Shown piece after piece: positions 5,959 through 33,040 of a DNA stretch of 64,000 nt. The first letter of the stretch is position 1. Every line of letters starts with the position of its first letter. The translations under genes were made by a program, and so were the position numbers. The notes under the pieces were generated by a model. The model ran no database searches and was not told where the DNA came from. It saw only the letters and a program-made list of their open reading frames with translations. This stretch comes from Sulfurimonas sp. HSL1-2 (GTDB taxonomy: Bacteria > Campylobacterota > Campylobacteria > Campylobacterales > Sulfurimonadaceae): positions 1,547,573 to 1,611,572 of the forward strand of contig NZ_CP147914.1 in assembly GCF_039645565.1 (NCBI RefSeq). Direction: 5' to 3'.

Positions 5959-7467
5959 TTAAAAATTATTTTTAAAATGAAAGACGGTGAGATTGGTGCG
6001 GCGGAAGCCGCGGCGGGTGTAGAAGTTATGGGCGTTTTCATTGTCGATATCCGCGGCGAGCTGGATGCGTTTGTAGCCGTACGACTGTGCCATAAAGCGC
6101 ATTTTGTTGATGAGACGACTGCCCACCCCCATCTTCCGGTACTCCTGCAGGACGACCAGGTCTTCGATCTGTCCAACGTAATCGCCTTCGGCACTGGAGA
6201 TGAGGCGCTGCATCGTCAGCATCCCGACCACCTTCCCCTCGTGCCGTGCGACGAGCAGGTCGGTACCCTCGTGGCCGTAGAGTTTCGTAATCCCGGAGAG
6301 CTGCTTGTCGAAATCGATCTCGAAATCCTGTTCGATGGCGAAGAGCACCCCCAGCAACTCGGCCATGTGCGGAAGGTCCTCCTCCGTCGCGGCTTCGATC
6401 GTGATGCCGGTCTTCATATTGATGTCACAGATCTCCGGGTGGAGCACTTCGATCACCAGCTTCGCATGTTCATTAAGCGGGTTGTCTCCTATATAGAGGG
6501 ATTTCAGGCTCTTCATGTTCGCCAGCTCCTCCGGCAGGTCGACGATGGCATTGCCGTCGATATCGAGTTCGTACAGCTCCGTATAACGGCTGATCGTCTC
6601 CGGCACGTCGGAAATGGCGTTGGAAGAGAAGCACAGCGACCCCAGGGTGGTCGACGGCAGCATCGGGAAGGCCGTCAGTCCGCAGCCGTCACAGGAGAAG
6701 GCGCGCAGATAGGGGGCGAAATCATCCGCAATTTGCAGCGAAGAGAGTGCATTGTCGTCCAGCGTCATGACTTCTAGCTCATCCAGCCCGTGCAGTGTCA
6801 CCTCCTTGATCCGGTTCGATGCGAGGTTGACCGATTCGACCCCCAGGGTGAAAAAGGCTTTGTCGATCGTCTCGATGCGGTTGTCCGAGAGCTCCAGCTC
6901 CAGCAGCGAACTGAGGTACGCCGCCTCCGGGGGGATAGAGGTGATCAGGTTTCCCTCGAGGTTCAGACGCTCGACCGAAGTCAGCTGGGCCAGCATGGCG
7001 GCAATATCTTTAATATAGTTGCCCGCGAGGTTGAGGGTGCGCAGTTCATTGGGAACGCTCAGGCAGTTGTCGAAGCGCTCGAGCACGTTGCCGCTGAGAT
7101 CGAGCACACGCAGCATCGTGAAACGGACCAGCTCGCAAACGTCGCTGATACGGTTGCCGCTGAGGTTGAGCGAACGGATCGGCAGCGCCCCCAACAGCGC
7201 CGGGACGGCCGTGAAGGCGTTACGCCGAAGGTCGACGTTGCCCAGTTTCGTCATCGATGCCATGGACTCGGGCAGTGCAGCGAGTTTGTTGTTGCCCAGG
7301 TTGAGCGCAACCAGTTCGCTGAGCAGACCGAAACTCTCGGGCAGGCTCTGCAGCGCGCGGTTGCTCAGATCGAGGCGTTTCACCTCGGCGGGGACTTTGA
7401 CTTCCGGTGCGATGGCCCGCTGCGCCATCAGCCAGGTACGCAGGGTCTCCCATTGCGGTTCGGACAT
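5959..7467 (-). CDS. leucine-rich-repeat protein fused to a GNAT acetyltransferase
   Basis: Residues about 25-345 hold some 13 leucine-rich repeats of the LxxLxLxxNxL type (for example LVALNLGNNKLAALP). Residues about 354-502 form a GNAT N-acetyltransferase domain with the acetyl-CoA loop YRKMGVGSRL and the C-terminal NFYTRRGFRR motif. The protein is cytoplasmic by sequence, with no signal peptide. It is the last gene of the nifB-nifV unit, 2 bases after the small Cys protein. The LRR part may select a protein substrate for acetylation; the substrate is unknown. The fusion is continuous, with no frameshift. Domain calls are sure; the role in nitrogen fixation is inferred from position. Confidence 0.9.
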   Translation of the reverse strand: MSEPQWETLRTWLMAQRAIAPEVKVPAEVKRLDLSNRALQSLPESFGLLSELVALNLGNNKLAALPESMASMTKLGNVDLRRNAFTAVPALLGALPIRSLNLSGNRISDVCELVRFTMLRVLDLSGNVLERFDNCLSVPNELRTLNLAGNYIKDIAAMLAQLTSVERLNLEGNLITSIPPEAAYLSSLLELELSDNRIETIDKAFFTLGVESVNLASNRIKEVTLHGLDELEVMTLDDNALSSLQIADDFAPYLRAFSCDGCGLTAFPMLPSTTLGSLCFSSNAISDVPETISRYTELYELDIDGNAIVDLPEELANMKSLKSLYIGDNPLNEHAKLVIEVLHPEICDINMKTGITIEAATEEDLPHMAELLGVLFAIEQDFEIDFDKQLSGITKLYGHEGTDLLVARHEGKVVGMLTMQRLISSAEGDYVGQIEDLVVLQEYRKMGVGSRLINKMRFMAQSYGYKRIQLAADIDNENAHNFYTRRGFRRTNLTVFHFKNNF

Positions 7468-7469
7468 AG

Positions 7470-7736
7470 TTACTCTCCTTCCGCCAAACGGCGTATCCGC
7501 TCGAGGCGCTGTTCGATCAGGTGCTCGATCTCTTCAAAATCGTACGTACCGAACTGGTTCATGTCGTACAATTTTACCAGTGCCGCACGGCAGCAGCTCT
7601 TATTGCATTCGGTCACCAGTTTTTTCGCTTTTTTAAATGGGAGGGAGGTGTTTTGAAAGATGTCGATAGCCTCGGCGACATTTTTTTCGCCGCATTCGCA
7701 GATCTCCATCCGGAGAATCTCTTCTTTATTTCGCAT
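7470..7736 (-). CDS. small Cys-rich protein, possibly BFD-like [2Fe-2S]
   Basis: The 88-residue protein has the Cys pattern C13-x-C15 then C44-x3-C48-C49, in a helical frame (CECGEKN...TECNKSCC). This is reminiscent of the BFD-type [2Fe-2S] domain found in bacterioferritin-associated ferredoxin and the middle of NifU (CxC-x30ish-CxxC), but the second pair is spaced differently, so the match is tentative. A charged helical tail follows. It sits between the DUF683 gene and the LRR/GNAT gene in the nifB unit, with its stop two bases before the next ATG. Confidence 0.75.
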   Translation of the reverse strand: MRNKEEILRMEICECGEKNVAEAIDIFQNTSLPFKKAKKLVTECNKSCCRAALVKLYDMNQFGTYDFEEIEHLIEQRLERIRRLAEGE

Positions 7737-11822: not shown

Positions 11823-11838
11823 TGCAAACCCCATTCCA
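11823..11838 (-). promoter_or_regulatory. sigma-54 promoter of nifB
   Basis: The minus strand reads TGGAAT-N5-TTGCA with exact -24/-12 spacing. Transcription would start near 11812, giving a leader of about 71 bases before the nifB ATG. The 315-base stretch 11742-12056 holds this promoter and the divergent one at 11992; no exact NifA-type site was found in it. Confidence 0.75.
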
Positions 11839-21528: not shown

Positions 21529-21544
21529 TAGAACGCATATTGCA
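21529..21544 (+). promoter_or_regulatory. sigma-54 promoter of the 187 aa gene
   Basis: TAGAAC-GCATA-TTGCA: exact spacing, perfect -12, and GAACGCAT shared with the nifH and 11992 promoters. Predicted start near 21555, 27 bases before the ATG at 21582. Confidence 0.7.
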
Positions 21545-21581: not shown

Positions 21582-22145
21582 ATGTCAACAGTACAGGACT
21601 TCATTTTCGGGAACAACCTGCAGTGGCAGGCCTCTTTCAGCGAGAAAACAGACAAATACGCCTACGGCTACCGCGGCAGCCTCGTCATCACCCCGGGCAA
21701 GGTGCTCTCTGCCGACAAACAGCTCCCGCCGAAGGCCACGGCGACACAGGTTATCCTCGTCAGCAACAGCGACAAAATCGACTTCATCGCCTGCGAACTC
21801 GAAACCCTCGATTTTTTCGAACCGTTCGTCGAACAGTACAAAGAGGTCCTCTCCACCGACGGTCTCTATCTCCTCTTCGTCACCGACCTCGATGCCGACG
21901 GCAAGTTCGAGTATGAGGGTTTCACGTTCTACGCCTTCTCCCTCGATGAAAGCTCTGTCTGGAACGAACTGCTCGACTACGCAGACCTCTCCAAAGGCGA
22001 CCTGAAAAAACTCGATGCCGGCGAAAAGATCGATACGGTCTACGACGAGATCAAAGCGACGACGCTACGTATTTCCGACAAAAGCTATGACGATATCAAA
22101 GCCGCCCAGAGCAGCGAAGGCAAAGTCCTCTTCGGCGCCGTCTGA
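21582..22145 (+). CDS. uncharacterised protein with nif-type promoter (187 aa)
   Basis: A 187-residue acidic soluble protein with a single Cys (FIACELETLDFF). The N-terminal half looks like a beta-rich domain (QWQASFSEKTDKYAYGYRGSLVITPG), the C-terminal half like helices (DLSKGDLKKLDAGEKIDTVYDEIKATTLRI). No membrane span. I do not recognise a family. It is a single gene, flanked by unrelated genes, but its promoter has the same form as the nif promoters, so it is a candidate member of the nif regulon. Confidence 0.8.
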   Translation: MSTVQDFIFGNNLQWQASFSEKTDKYAYGYRGSLVITPGKVLSADKQLPPKATATQVILVSNSDKIDFIACELETLDFFEPFVEQYKEVLSTDGLYLLFVTDLDADGKFEYEGFTFYAFSLDESSVWNELLDYADLSKGDLKKLDAGEKIDTVYDEIKATTLRISDKSYDDIKAAQSSEGKVLFGAV

Positions 22146-28350: not shown

Positions 28351-28746
28351 TTACCCCGCCTCGTTGAGTTCTTCGGGCTCTTCCTCGACAAGTTTGCCGA
28401 CGCCGCGGTCTTCAACCGGGATATCTTCGCGGAATTTCTTTTTGCGGAACGACGGTGTTTTGAGCTTGCCGTTCTTTTCGCCGAGCTTGTAGATCTCTTC
28501 GTTCAGGAAATGCTCTTCGAACTCCGGGGTGAACGGCATGTCCCACGTGATCGTACCGATGCTCGGGCAGATCGCGGCGCATTGCGGGTCATCATAGATC
28601 CCGACGCACTCGACACACTTTTCAGGCTGGACATAGTAGCGGCTCTCACCGGTAGGGTTGTCCGAATCGTCTACGATAGCGTTGACCGGACAGACTTGCA
28701 GACAGGCGTCGCAGGTGATACATTTGTCATCAATAATTACAGCCAT
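28351..28746 (-). CDS. 2[4Fe-4S] ferredoxin, nif type
   Basis: The 131-residue ferredoxin has two cluster motifs: C9-x2-C12-x2-C15-x3-C19 and C44-x2-C47-x8-C56-x3-C60. The eight-residue spacing in the second motif and the long C-terminal helix extension are typical of the Allochromatium/FdxN class in nif clusters. It probably carries electrons to nitrogenase or to NifB. It follows nifX after 81 bases. A second, related ferredoxin lies on the other side of nifX. Confidence 0.93.
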   Translation of the reverse strand: MAVIIDDKCITCDACLQVCPVNAIVDDSDNPTGESRYYVQPEKCVECVGIYDDPQCAAICPSIGTITWDMPFTPEFEEHFLNEEIYKLGEKNGKLKTPSFRKKKFREDIPVEDRGVGKLVEEEPEELNEAG

Positions 28747-28827: not shown

Positions 28828-29205
28828 TCAGGCGCTGCGCTGGGCACCTTTGTGGAAAGCGCGCAGCAGCCAGATCGGCGGCTGCGTGTTCAGCATCTCG
28901 TGGATCTGGTCGATCGCGCCTTTGAGGTCCTCCCCTTCGGCGACCTTGACGGGGTGGATCCCCGCGGCCTGGACCATCTTCGAAGCCTTCGGTCCGATCT
29001 GGGTGCAGTACATGATGTCTGCTTCCTCGATCGTCCCGATCTTGTAGTTGAGTTTCGCCACTTCCTCTTCAGGCTCATCAGAACTGTCGATGACTTTGAG
29101 CAGCGTCGCGCTCTCTTTATCGATTTCGTAAAGATGGAACGTCTTGGACCAGCCGAAGTGCTGATCGATCTTCTCGCCCGTTGATGAAGCAAATGCAATT
29201 CTCAT
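28828..29205 (-). CDS. nifX: FeMo-cofactor carrier NifX
   Basis: NifX binds NifB-co and VK-cluster during FeMo-co assembly. The 125-residue protein starts MRIAFASSTGEKIDQHFGWSK, the conserved His-containing loop, and has FHLYEID and EEADIMYCTQIGPKASKMVQ of the family. The ATG at 29205 was chosen as the family start; the longer frame reads through two hairpins. It lies between two ferredoxin genes. NifE and NifN, its usual neighbours, are not in this window. Confidence 0.92.
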   Translation of the reverse strand: MRIAFASSTGEKIDQHFGWSKTFHLYEIDKESATLLKVIDSSDEPEEEVAKLNYKIGTIEEADIMYCTQIGPKASKMVQAAGIHPVKVAEGEDLKGAIDQIHEMLNTQPPIWLLRAFHKGAQRSA

Positions 29206-29373: not shown

Positions 29374-29766
29374 TTAAAATGAATCGGCGACGTTGGCATG
29401 GGCTTCGCGTGCATCCATACCGATCTCGTCCATGAACTTCTGCTCCTTGACGGAAGGAAGCATCAGCCCTTTTTTCTTGTGTTCGCGGATCTTGTAGGTA
29501 CCGTCCTCGTTTCCTTTGGCGTAGTACTCTTCGAAGTCAACCGTGAACGGCATATCCCATACGATGGAACCCTCTGTCGGGCACGCTTCCGCACAACGCG
29601 GTGTATCCGCATGACCGACACACTCGACACAGGTCTCCGGCTTCACATAGAAGCGCTCGTCGTCATAAGGGTTCTTTTCGTCACCGTTGCTCAGAATTGC
29701 CGCGACCGGACACTCCGGTGCACATGCGTCACAGTTGATGCACTCATCCGTAATCATTACTGCCAT
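29374..29766 (-). CDS. 2[4Fe-4S] ferredoxin, nif type
   Basis: The 130-residue ferredoxin has C9-x2-C12-x2-C15-x3-C19 and C46-x2-C49-x8-C58-x3-C62, the same class as the protein at 28351. It starts MAVMITDECINCDAC, with a GGAG site nearby. A sigma-54 promoter (29800-29815) within the end of the upstream gene gives it a separate transcript. It probably donates electrons to nitrogenase or to cofactor assembly. Confidence 0.93.
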   Translation of the reverse strand: MAVMITDECINCDACAPECPVAAILSNGDEKNPYDDERFYVKPETCVECVGHADTPRCAEACPTEGSIVWDMPFTVDFEEYYAKGNEDGTYKIREHKKKGLMLPSVKEQKFMDEIGMDAREAHANVADSF

Positions 29767-29793: not shown

Positions 29794-30243
29794 TCAGTTT
29801 GCAACTTTCGTTCCCGAACGCTTCTTGAAACTCTCCACTGTCATCGGAACCACATCGGGCTCCAGGTGGATATCCACGCCGCGCAGCAGCATCGTTGCCC
29901 TGCAGCCCACTTCCAGACCGAGCTCCCGGCAGGCGTTTTCCGTGATCAGCGACACGACCGTCCCGATATCGCTCTCAAACGTCAGTTCGCAGAGCGAGTC
30001 TTTGCTGCGGATCTTCAGGAGCGTACCCGGAATACGGTTTTCGATGGAGACCTTGCCCGGGCACTCCTTGCTGATACAGACCGAAGCCTCCTGGAAACTG
30101 AAGAGGACCTTTTCACCCACCCCGGCCCAAAGCGGTGTCTTTGTTTTGATAAGACGGACCTGCGTGTCATTGCACTGCAGGGTGATATAGGTGACGATGT
30201 CCGTCTGTTCGATCTCGGTAACGACTGCGGCGATCCTGTTCAT
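29794..30243 (-). CDS. TOBE-domain (molbindin-like) protein
   Basis: The 149-residue protein appears to hold two TOBE/Mop-like units: the second is clearer (NRIPGTLLKIRSKDSLCELTFESD...VVSLITENACRELGLEVGCRATMLLRGVDIHL). Proteins of this type bind molybdate and store or hand on molybdenum. No ModE HTH domain is present. It is 11 bases after the HicB/Sel1/NifU fusion gene. Its role as molybdenum-handling partner of FeMo-co assembly is inferred. Confidence 0.82.
   Translation of the reverse strand: MNRIAAVVTEIEQTDIVTYITLQCNDTQVRLIKTKTPLWAGVGEKVLFSFQEASVCISKECPGKVSIENRIPGTLLKIRSKDSLCELTFESDIGTVVSLITENACRELGLEVGCRATMLLRGVDIHLEPDVVPMTVESFKKRSGTKVAN
29800..29815 (-). promoter_or_regulatory. internal sigma-54 promoter of the ferredoxin-nifX genes
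   Basis: The minus strand reads GGGAAC-N5-TTGCA with exact spacing, lying within the last 8 codons of the TOBE gene. Predicted start near 29789, 23 bases before the ferredoxin ATG. Confidence 0.7.
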
Positions 30244-30254
30244 CCTCTTCCCCC

Positions 30255-31154
30255 TTACATCAGGTAAAGGACGACATTTTTGTCGATCAGCTCCTCGAAA
30301 GCGTCGAGCAGCATGTCCGCTGTCGACGTTGAACCGAGGTGACAGCCCGAACAGGCACCAAGGTAGTTCAACCAGATCTGCGGGGTCTCGCCCGGAACGT
30401 AATTGAGCAGCTCGATCCCGCCGCTGTCGGCTTCGAGGGTCGGGCGGATCTTCTGGTCGATCACCTGCATCACCAGCGTGATCTGCTTTTCCACCGGCAG
30501 GCTGCGGAACGGTTCGTTACGCAGGGTTGCCAGCTCTTTGTTGCTGACATAGGTGACGACCTCCTGTGCCCGTACATTGTTATTGTGCGCAGCGGTGATC
30601 AGGTAGCGCATCGCTTCGGCCTTCTGCCCCGCTTCTTTGAGGAGCATGCCCGCTTTGAACTGGGCGTCGACATGGCCGATATCGGCGGCCGCTCTGTAGT
30701 ACTGCAGCGCCCCTTTGGCATCGGGCATACCGTCGATCCCTTTCTCATGGATCTGCGCCAGGCTCATCATCGCATGCATATTGCCGCGCTCCGCCGCCTT
30801 GGCAAACCACGATTTTGCCGCTTCGATATCGCGGCCGCACCCTTTGCCCTGCATCGCCATGACCCCCAGGTTCACCATGGCGTTGGCATCCGCATTTGCC
30901 GCCGAATCGACAAAGAGGTCATAGGCCTCTTTATACTGTTTGGCCTCGTAGGCGCTGACGCCCGCTTCGAATGTAGTCATTTTCTGCTCCTCCTGATTTT
31001 GAAAATAGGCTTCGAGCCGTTCATATGCATCTTCTTCGGCCTCCTCAAAGGAGTCGCCGATCCCTTTGATCTCCGGAAAATCGACGAACTGGGCGACGCA
31101 GCCGTCCCCCTCCTCGTTGGAAAAACCGAAATAATCGAGTGCATACTTTTTCAT
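30255..31154 (-). CDS. HicB-like / Sel1-repeat / NifU-C-terminal fusion protein
   Basis: The 299-residue protein has three parts. Residues 1-55 match the HicB-like partial RNase-H fold (CVAQFVDFPEIKGIGDSFEEAEEDA). Residues about 60-215 are Sel1-like repeats (AMVNLGVMAMQGKG, AKSWFAKAAERGN). Residues about 220-299 are the NifU/Nfu C-terminal domain with CxxC (GACSGCHLGSTS). NifU domains carry Fe-S clusters. The start at 31154 is only 1 base from the predicted sigma-54 transcription start, so translation may be leaderless. An in-frame ATG at 30980 with AGGAGG upstream could make a shorter Sel1-NifU form. Confidence 0.85.
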   Translation of the reverse strand: MKKYALDYFGFSNEEGDGCVAQFVDFPEIKGIGDSFEEAEEDAYERLEAYFQNQEEQKMTTFEAGVSAYEAKQYKEAYDLFVDSAANADANAMVNLGVMAMQGKGCGRDIEAAKSWFAKAAERGNMHAMMSLAQIHEKGIDGMPDAKGALQYYRAAADIGHVDAQFKAGMLLKEAGQKAEAMRYLITAAHNNNVRAQEVVTYVSNKELATLRNEPFRSLPVEKQITLVMQVIDQKIRPTLEADSGGIELLNYVPGETPQIWLNYLGACSGCHLGSTSTADMLLDAFEELIDKNVVLYLM

Positions 31155-31187: not shown

Positions 31188-31203
31188 TGGAACACTTTTT
31201 GCA
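31188..31203 (+). promoter_or_regulatory. sigma-54 promoter of the NifX-like/131 aa operon
   Basis: TGGAAC-N5-TTGCA, near-perfect. Predicted start near 31214, 21 bases before the ATG at 31235, which has AAGGAGG four bases upstream. Confidence 0.82.
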
Positions 31204-31234: not shown

Positions 31235-31630
31235 ATGATCGCTATACCGGTGGACAAGGCGTCTATGGATGTCAAGTCATCGAAACTCTTCGGAAACGTC
31301 CAGGCGTTCGCCCTTTACAGTAATGATGAAAAGGCGTTCCACTTCGTTCCGAACAACGGCAAGGGGGACGGTGTCAAAACCGCCAAACTGCTTGCCGATC
31401 TCTCCGTGACGTCCGTCGTCTACTCTTTCATGGGTGACGGCCCCTACGGCATCCTGGAAGAGGAAGGCATCGGTGTTTACTACCTCGGGAAGGAGCCTCT
31501 GGCGCTTTCCACTATTATCGAGGGGATGGAAACGGAAAATTTCGTCAAAGTGATTTCGGCGAACGCGCAGACCTACCTCGATCCGGGCACGGCATCGGGA
31601 GAGTGCGGATGTGGATGCAGCCATGACTGA
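31235..31630 (+). CDS. NifX-like cofactor-binding protein with Cys-rich tail
   Basis: The 131-residue protein fits the NifX/MTH1175 dinitrogenase-cofactor domain (MIAIPVDKASMDVKSSKLFGNVQAFALYSNDE, then LLADLSVTSVVYSFMGDGPYG). The C-terminal GECGCGCSHD tail adds four Cys and a His, a likely metal-binding site not found in normal NifX. It has its own sigma-54 promoter and leads a plus-strand operon of four. It is the third free NifX-like protein here, beside the NifB domain. Confidence 0.85.
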   Translation: MIAIPVDKASMDVKSSKLFGNVQAFALYSNDEKAFHFVPNNGKGDGVKTAKLLADLSVTSVVYSFMGDGPYGILEEEGIGVYYLGKEPLALSTIIEGMETENFVKVISANAQTYLDPGTASGECGCGCSHD

Positions 31631-31868
31631 GATTATCACCAAAGAAATGCATGAGATCCGCGGCCTGATCGCGCAGACCGTCGCCAAGCGCAATGCGCTC
31701 AAGGCGGAGATGCAGGAGTGGTACGACCGCTTCCCCAACGAACGCTTCGGCAAGTTCAAGGACCTGATCGCCGTTGACGGCGTGCTCTCGCAGCTTGATA
31801 CGCACTACAAACAGCTCTGGGACTTCCACAACGCCCGCACGGAAACCGTGCAGAAAAAGGCAATGTAA
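31623..31868 (+). CDS. small helical nif-linked protein (81-85 aa)
   Basis: The frame overlaps the previous stop (ATGACTGA at 31623), a translational coupling; another in-frame ATG lies at 31611. The product is almost wholly helical (MTEIITKEMHEIRGLIAQTVAKRNALKAEMQEWYDRFPNERFGKFKDL is the pattern, with a Trp/Tyr centre) and has no Cys. No family recognised. Second gene of the operon from 31235. Confidence 0.75.
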   Translation: MTEIITKEMHEIRGLIAQTVAKRNALKAEMQEWYDRFPNERFGKFKDLIAVDGVLSQLDTHYKQLWDFHNARTETVQKKAM

Positions 31869-31871
31869 GGG

Positions 31872-32516
31872 ATGCCGGAGTACAGCAAGGCCAGTAAGGC
31901 CCGCGTGCCTGATGAGACCTCTGAGTACAGTGAAAAAGGGCGGCTGACAGCCGCCGGTGCGCAGATCGACCGCTACCGGATCATCCTGGACAAGGACAAT
32001 TTCCAGCCCGAAGAACCCCACTGGCGGCGTATCAGCAAGAATACCGTCAGTCTTTTCCAGGTCCTGATCGACCAGGACCTCAAAGAGCTTGTCATGGTGC
32101 TGGAACACTACCCCCGCTACATCGAGTGGGTCTGTGAACATTTCCGCTACGCCTACAGTTACAGCGAGAACGAAGCGAGTATCGACGCCGCTTCCCGGCT
32201 GCTGGAGCTTGGGGAGCCCTTTTTCACGAAGCAGTTTGTCCGCAACCTCGTCCGCAAGCTCCCGCGCCTCGATGCCATGGAGCTCGAAGCGCTCAAAACG
32301 TTTGCCGAAGCACTTGCGGCGCACCACGGGCAGTGGCACCCCATCATTACGAACCACTACTGCGACGCTATCGGAGAGAGCGTCGAATCCCGGAAACTGC
32401 ATCCGCTGCAGCGCCTCGCCATCACCGGCAAGATCGCAAACATTGCACGGATCGAAACCTTCGAGTACGACGCCGAAGACCGCGACGCCGTCCTCGATAT
32501 CCCCTACATGAATTGA
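31872..32516 (+). CDS. uncharacterised nif-linked protein (214 aa)
   Basis: A 214-residue protein. A basic/polar start (MPEYSKASKARVPDETSEYS) precedes a helical core with many Tyr, Trp and His (EHFRYAYSYSENEAS, EALAAHHGQWHPI). Two Cys are present (WVCEHF, HYCDAI). It may be an alpha-helical scaffold protein. It lies 3 bases after the preceding gene. No family recognised; membership of a sigma-54 operon is the only functional clue. Confidence 0.78.
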   Translation: MPEYSKASKARVPDETSEYSEKGRLTAAGAQIDRYRIILDKDNFQPEEPHWRRISKNTVSLFQVLIDQDLKELVMVLEHYPRYIEWVCEHFRYAYSYSENEASIDAASRLLELGEPFFTKQFVRNLVRKLPRLDAMELEALKTFAEALAAHHGQWHPIITNHYCDAIGESVESRKLHPLQRLAITGKIANIARIETFEYDAEDRDAVLDIPYMN

Positions 32517-32536
32517 ATTGAACAGAAAGGTTACCT

Positions 32537-33040
32537 ATGGATAAAGAAACCCTCAAAGAAGAACTTCTCAAACACGCGCGCAACGCTTTTGAAACCGCTT
32601 CGACCCTGCACGAGAACGAACGTATCGAAGTCTACCTGCACGACGGTGTCGCCAAGACCTCGGATGTCCTTGATGACAGCGACGAGATCCTCTACGGCGA
32701 CAACCGGGTGCTGTGCTACCAGATCCAGGGGTACGACTACCTCGAAGGCGAGATCAAAACCTGGATCGACTATGCCCGGGTCATCCAGGAACCCACCGAT
32801 GAGATGCCGCTGCCCGAACCCACCGACATCGAAAAATCGATCCGCGAACTTATCGACACGCTGGCGAAATCCAAAGGGGTGAGCCGCGACGACATCAGCT
32901 CCTTCGAAGTCTTCGCCAACCTGCCGATGGACCTGCTGGGCTCTATCGAACAGCAGATCATCGAGTACTGGTGGAGCGCGGAAGAGGAAGAGAACGGCAA
33001 GAAACTCGCCCTGGCTCAGATCGAAGAGGCATTGGCCTAA
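32537..33040 (+). CDS. uncharacterised nif-linked protein (167 aa)
   Basis: A 167-residue acidic protein with a beta-like middle (RIEVYLHDGVAKTSDVLDDSD, VLCYQIQGYDYLEGEIKTW) and a helical C-terminal half (RDDISSFEVFANLPMDLLGSIEQQIIEYWWS). One Cys. No membrane span. The AAAGG site precedes the ATG. It is the last gene of the operon that starts at 31235 and is followed by two hairpins. Family not recognised. Confidence 0.78.
   Translation: MDKETLKEELLKHARNAFETASTLHENERIEVYLHDGVAKTSDVLDDSDEILYGDNRVLCYQIQGYDYLEGEIKTWIDYARVIQEPTDEMPLPEPTDIEKSIRELIDTLAKSKGVSRDDISSFEVFANLPMDLLGSIEQQIIEYWWSAEEEENGKKLALAQIEEALA

Follow-up and report, generated by a model that had tools for sequence, protein, structure and literature searches.

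The closest described systems pair a MoxR AAA+ ATPase with a VWA protein. NorQ and NorD insert iron (Fe_B) into cNOR (PMC13036017, PMC9976466). CoxD, a MoxR ATPase, and CoxE, a VWA protein, are maturation factors for the Mo/Cu site of CO dehydrogenase (PMC4240915). CbbQ and CbbO form a Rubisco activase, and a carboxylate of the target docks on the MIDAS of the VWA protein (PMC4660213).

How FeMo-co is inserted and how nitrogenase matures have long been open problems, and they are an obstacle to the transfer of nitrogenase into new hosts. A literature search for MoxR or AAA+/VWA proteins together with nitrogenase or nifQ, by title and abstract and mostly outside the subscription journals, turned up no MoxR/VWA machine linked to nitrogenase. 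Here we describe four genes, P1 to P4, from a diazotrophic member of the Campylobacterota. We consider it about an even call that they form an accessory nif operon for cofactor handling, in which P3 serves a nitrogenase-dedicated MoxR-VWA machine that resembles NorQD and CbbQO.

Results

Four tightly packed genes opposite a second operon

The window (the whole stretch of DNA that we analysed, 64,000 nucleotides) contains four tightly packed open reading frames on the plus strand at 31235-33040, exactly the positions given in a preliminary description of this DNA (Table 1). The reading frames of P1 and P2 share 8 bases, P2 and P3 are 3 bases apart, and P3 and P4 are 20 bases apart, which bears out the close spacing of the four genes noted there. 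P2 could also be read from an upstream in-frame GTG, which would give 85 amino acids instead of 81. The order P1-P2-P3-P4, or a subset of it, divergent from genes for Sel1NifU, Mop, ferredoxin, NifX, and a second ferredoxin, is conserved in many genera, and the window genome also carries nifA, nifHDK, and nifEN. An M18 aminopeptidase gene follows P4 in the window. The Sel1NifU protein of the window's genus has an N-terminal extension (MKKYALDYFGF..., HicB-like by eye only) that is missing in many relatives.

Table 1. Features of the P1-P4 region, in window coordinates
Feature	Position	Strand	Description
P1	31235..31630	+	131 aa; PF02579 (dinitrogenase iron-molybdenum cofactor family), hmmscan E 3.2e-8
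P1 Cys/His C-terminal tail GECGCGCSHD	31598..31627	+	conserved as YLDPGTAxGxCxCGCSH
P2	31623..31868	+	81 aa; no family match
P3	31872..32516	+	214 aa, predicted all-helical; paralogue of par (nifQ-MoxR-VWA operon)
P3 C-terminal motif DRDAVLDIPYM	32478..32510	+	predicted disordered, nearly invariant
P4	32537..33040	+	167 aa, predicted alpha/beta; no family match, no convincing fold match
Sigma-54-type promoter of P1-P4, TGGAACACTTTTTGCA	31188..31203	+	exact GG-N10-GC spacing
Sigma-54-type promoter of the nif operon opposite, divergent, TGGAACGTTCTTTGCA	31181-31166	-	back to back with the P1-P4 promoter
Facing gene 1, Sel1 repeats and NifU C-terminal-like (PF01106) domain	30255..31154	-	adjoins P1-P4 in nearly all loci
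Facing gene 2, TOBE/Mop molybdenum-binding-like protein	29794..30243	-	Pfam/NCBIfam search
Facing gene 3, 2[4Fe-4S]-type ferredoxin	29374..29766	-	Pfam/NCBIfam search
Facing gene 4, NifX-like protein	28828..29205	-	TIGR02663 102 bits, slightly under the cut-off of 112
Facing gene 5, second ferredoxin	28351..28746	-	Pfam/NCBIfam search

P1 had been described as NifX-like with a GECGCGCSHD tail, and this is right at the level of the family only: P1 passes the gathering score of PF02579 (34.2 bits against 26.3), but it had no match at E ≤ 1 to the NifX equivalog model TIGR02663, so the idea that it is a canonical NifX is unsupported. The nearest solved relatives of the P1 profile are MTH1175 and ORP. 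The tail is indeed conserved, and C124 and C126 are invariant in an alignment of 13 homologues (A4). P1 is probably a carrier of FeMo-co, of a precursor, or of some other metal cluster.

P2, P3, and P4 did not score above the cut-off for any Pfam or NCBIfam model, so they are still the three unrecognised proteins (of 81-85, 214, and 167 amino acids) that they were said to be. We also rejected the idea that P2 is DUF683/Rop-like (PF05082): there was no Pfam match, hhalign against six DUF683 proteins gave a probability of 1%, and the genome's DUF683 gene lies elsewhere. PDB sequence searches with P2 and with P3 gave chance-level matches only. P2 was found only where P4 is, and the two are a nearly obligate pair; they may form a complex with P1.

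Structure models of P3 and P4 were built from shallow alignments (13 and 21 sequences). The prediction for P3 is an all-helical protein (mean pLDDT 78) whose N-terminus and C-terminal tail are disordered, and that for P4 is an alpha/beta protein (pLDDT 90). We rejected the best fold relatives from Foldseek and VIA-align, because their scores are within the tool's stated background range: for P3, these were MIF4G, retromer, and designed repeats (best Z 5.8, rmsd 3.4, 71 aligned), and for P4, where the best match had Z 5.0 (rmsd 4.3, 93 aligned), the C-terminal domain of Fe-superoxide dismutases.

A paralogue of P3 is encoded with nifQ, MoxR, and VWA genes

P3 is homologous to a protein that we call par, whose gene stands downstream of a DUF2201/VWA gene and is 142 kb away from P3 in the window genome. 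The recurring order in relatives is nifQ, a MoxR AAA+ ATPase, DUF2201/VWA, par, sometimes a small gene, and an ArsC-like gene. NifQ is involved in the supply of molybdenum to FeMo-co. The ArsC-like protein passes the model for "nitrogenase-associated protein," TIGR01616 (129.2 versus 109 bits). In the window genome, roughly 5 kb of extra DNA has been inserted between MoxR and nifQ on one side and VWA and par on the other. This insertion (L045:9786 to L086:599) is also present in near relatives, and it contains unknown genes, of which one looks HNH-like, as well as a DNA-alkylation-repair-like gene.

The MoxR protein scores above the cut-offs for AAA_5/AAA_3, and both its Walker A (GSPGIGKS) and Walker B (ILFLDE) motifs are intact. 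The VWA protein belongs to DUF2201 and has a complete MIDAS, DxSxS-T-D (DxSxS, GGT, and SDG in all of the nif-type copies shown). These nif-type VWA proteins are a class apart: they score 480-703 bits in 15 genomes, all of which contain nifD, while other VWA proteins score at most 155 bits. There is also a second type of MoxR/VWA pair, with about 40% and 22% identity to the first type, which is found in several genomes beside nif-type genes or P2/P4 (L132, L133, L136, L094, L099, and L141). The window genome's own pair of this second type (L141:3585-5762) lies about 16 kb before the window.

What might such a machine do for nitrogenase? MoxR/VWA pairs can be reactivases (PMC4660213), and in the window genome there is a redoxin gene less than 3 kb from nifQ. 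So the operon and the MoxR/VWA proteins might protect or repair nitrogenase, by dealing with oxidative damage or by removing inhibitors (compare CbbQO on Rubisco), and have no part in cofactor assembly. We think that this is quite unlikely, as the nearest neighbours are nifQ and the nitrogenase-associated ArsC-like protein, and the redoxin gene is outside of the conserved run. The preliminary description had left the choice open by suggesting a unit for FeMo-co assembly or nitrogenase protection. A role in assembly or cofactor handling fits the context of nifQ, Mop, NifX, NifU-like, ferredoxin, and MoxR/VWA genes, but nothing points specifically to protection, and "unit" is too strong a word for two modules joined in one operon (see below).

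P3 has a highly conserved C-terminal tail. Among 17 homologues, 10 of the last 14 columns are invariant (A.DRDA..DIPYM) and an L is present at 94%, which gives the consensus DRDAx[LM]DIPYM; mean conservation is 0.89 in the tail versus 0.44 in the preceding linker. A tail of this type is absent from par, which has a conserved N-terminal stretch of its own (WAFxRPSGSH...IMAFNHSRL).

The genes for P3 and for the MoxR-VWA system are neighbours at several loci. P3 is part of a single run, MoxR-VWA-par-P3, in L056, L128, and L133; two extra genes separate par from P3 in L057; and MoxR/VWA/par genes are close to P1-P4 in L073, L079, and L081. At another locus (L131:8070-8636, in genome G183), P3 is away from P1, P2, and P4 and adjoins an M18 aminopeptidase gene.

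P2, P3, and P4 are confined to diazotrophs

Among 298 Campylobacterota genomes, some of which are incomplete MAGs, nifD was present in 48. P4 was found in 12 genomes (split in one of them, G034) and as a remnant in G260, and all of these are among the 48 (Fisher p = 8.5e-11, ignoring shared ancestry). Intact P3 was found in 12 of the 298 genomes and P2 in 11, again always with nifD. Similarly, 14 of 60 relatives have P4, and every one of the 14 has nifD. Within the window's genus, the four genomes with nifD have both P4 and P3, and the three without nifD (two of them incomplete) have neither. We discounted matches to the P3 profile in three genomes that lack nifD (G207, G229, and G252) as chance, because they are fragments that score 20-23 bits and contain 3-7 stops, and neither P3 nor par gave a tblastn match in the regions of G207 and G229 that were searched. 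Occurrence in non-diazotrophs had been named beforehand as what should sink the proposed link to nitrogen fixation. As P2, P3, and P4 were confined to genomes with nifD, the link came through this test.

Beyond the Campylobacterota, we searched public contigs with patterns derived from P4, and we searched plasmids with P3 and par. P4 was found in 25 public contigs, nearly all of them labelled as Campylobacterota or as a member genus; one was labelled Cloacimonadota and two just "bacterium." The contig labelled Candidatus Cloacimonadota (L069) has P1-P4, with a P4 that is 71% identical to the window's, and is probably mis-binned. No relatives of P3 or par were found on 72,556 plasmids.

P3 is absent from many genomes with P2/P4, and P2/P4 are absent from most diazotrophs. 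So neither P3 nor P2/P4 is a core gene set or is needed for nitrogenase in general. Among the genomes with nifD, P3 is present in 12 of the 15 with the nif-type VWA protein and in none of the 33 without it (Fisher p = 6.5e-9, ignoring shared ancestry). P4 is tied to the nif-type VWA only loosely (8 of 15 versus 4 of 33). Because P3 tracks the nif-type VWA and P4 does so only loosely, the operon joins two modules, P1/P2/P4 and P3.

Another account is that P1-P4 are a stand-alone unit for cluster trafficking, with P1 as the carrier and P2, P3, and P4 as its chaperones, and that the homology of P3 and par reflects an old duplication with no present link to MoxR/VWA. The conserved Cys tail of P1 and the facing operon, which is rich in Fe-S and Mo-binding-like proteins, would suit this idea, and P4 (mostly with P2) is retained in G020, G035, and G253, where P3 and the nif-type VWA are both missing. 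But it does not explain why P3 always co-occurs with the nif-type VWA (12 of 12 genomes) or why several families place P3 in a MoxR-VWA-par run, away from P1/P2/P4. We therefore consider it unlikely, and the linkage of P3 to the MoxR-VWA system is well supported.

Two genomes have broken copies. In G260 (1.6 Mb; L126 and L127), nifH, nifD, nifK, nifE, nifN, and RpoN are fragmented, with many frameshifts and stops, and the damage extends to MoxR, VWA, par, P4, and the Sel1NifU/ferredoxin operon. The decay of P4 along with nif, the restriction of P2-P4 to genomes with nifD, and the sigma-54-type promoter all argue for the nif specificity that had been proposed. In G034, P2 and P4 contain a stop or are split but nifD is intact, so either a diazotroph can lose P2/P4 or there are assembly errors there. 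We also note a leucine-rich-repeat-like protein of 502 amino acids and an 88 amino acid protein that are encoded upstream of nifH in the window's nif cluster (5959-7736, minus strand); both are broken in G260 (L127) too.

Promoters

The preliminary description had called P1-P4 a sigma-54 operon. A scan of the 64 kb window for T[GA]G[ACG]A[CT]N5[TA]TGC[AT] gave just 5 matches, counting both strands, and this -24/-12 pattern lies 44-66 bases 5' of P1-P4 at 14 of the 15 loci examined (counting the window), which supports that view. The site is often TAGAAC-N5-TTGCA. A strict GG-N10-GC scan missed most of the relatives' promoters because their -24 element is TAGAAC. Sigma-54-type sites are also present 5' of Sel1NifU in many loci and, in the window's genus, 5' of nifQ. 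The remaining three sites in the window are a divergent pair at 11838 (minus strand) and 11992 (plus strand) and one at 21529 (plus strand), 5' of an unknown ORF of 187 amino acids (21582-22145).

The genome encodes a NifA protein that scores over the cut-off (G000:1449016-1450590), and near it, from our reading of the sequence, an RpoN-like protein. At the loci that we scanned, no NifA upstream site (TGT-N10-ACA) was found within 220 bases of P1, and the nearest in the window is at 29839. We infer that P1-P4 are transcribed as an operon and that NifA controls the promoter.

Since P1-P4 share a divergent promoter region with ferredoxin genes, one could imagine that P3/par and P2/P4 adjust either the expression of nif or the supply of ferredoxin encoded in the facing operon. 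This strikes us as very improbable: P2-P4 do not match any known DNA-binding or redox domain, and the link to MoxR/VWA would be left unexplained.

Discussion

We return to the idea of cofactor handling with the help of a MoxR-VWA machine. In the first module, P1 would be a metal-cluster carrier, with P2 and P4 as its partners. In the second, P3 would be a helical protein that works with a MoxR AAA+/VWA machine dedicated to nif and encoded with nifQ, par, and the ArsC-like protein. We propose that this machine is dedicated to nitrogenase because of the MoxR/VWA analogues and because nifQ is its neighbour; the biochemical roles that we assign to P1-P4, MoxR, VWA, and par are drawn by analogy.

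More specifically, diazotrophic Campylobacterota may have an insertase or activase of the MoxR AAA+/VWA type that is dedicated to nitrogenase. Its helical adaptors would be the paralogues par and P3, the latter with a conserved acidic tail for docking, and ATP would drive the loading of Mo or FeMo-co into a nitrogenase-assembly protein or the remodelling of that protein. We would put this detailed version somewhat short of an even bet. A hexamer of MoxR, together with the VWA protein and its MIDAS, would do to the assembly protein what NorQD does to NO reductase and CbbQO to Rubisco. The adaptor would be P3 (and par), with the invariant acidic C-terminal tail of P3, DRDAx[LM]DIPYM, docking on the MIDAS of the VWA protein or on the ring. 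ATP-driven remodelling might then open up the target (e.g., apo-NifDK or the NifEN scaffold), so that Mo or FeMo-co could be loaded or a stuck intermediate released. Docking of the tail on the MIDAS is our guess, and par lacks the tail. Alternatively, P3 could be a substrate of the machine instead of an adaptor.

Our results suggest that some bacteria use an ATP-driven MoxR machine to build or activate nitrogenase. MoxR/VWA pairs are known for metal insertion (for NO reductase) and for the reactivation of Rubisco; none tied to nitrogenase came up in the papers searched. A gene set with its own promoter, a candidate docking motif, and natural presence and absence make the idea directly testable.

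How similar is this locus to known systems? P1 shares PF02579 with NifX, ORP, and MTH1175, and its profile matches the latter two. It differs from NifX by its Cys-rich tail and by failing to match TIGR02663, and the genome's NifX-like proteins are encoded elsewhere. As with NorQ/NorD, a MoxR ATPase and a MIDAS-bearing VWA protein are encoded beside metalloenzyme genes. Unlike NorQ/NorD, for which metal insertion has been shown, the putative nif machine is tied to nifQ, its VWA protein is of the DUF2201 type, and par and P3 accompany it as additional helical proteins. CoxD/CoxE also combine a MoxR ATPase with a VWA protein, and the site that they mature contains Mo (PMC4240915). They serve another enzyme and have other neighbours, and we liken them to the nif pair by the types of genes rather than by sequence. 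Finally, CbbQ/CbbO are a MoxR/VWA pair as well, and they dock on a carboxylate of their target through the MIDAS (PMC4660213). In the nif system, the proposed target would be a nitrogenase-assembly protein, and P3 would be an adaptor with a conserved acidic tail, for which the passages of PMC4660213 that we consulted describe no CbbQO counterpart.
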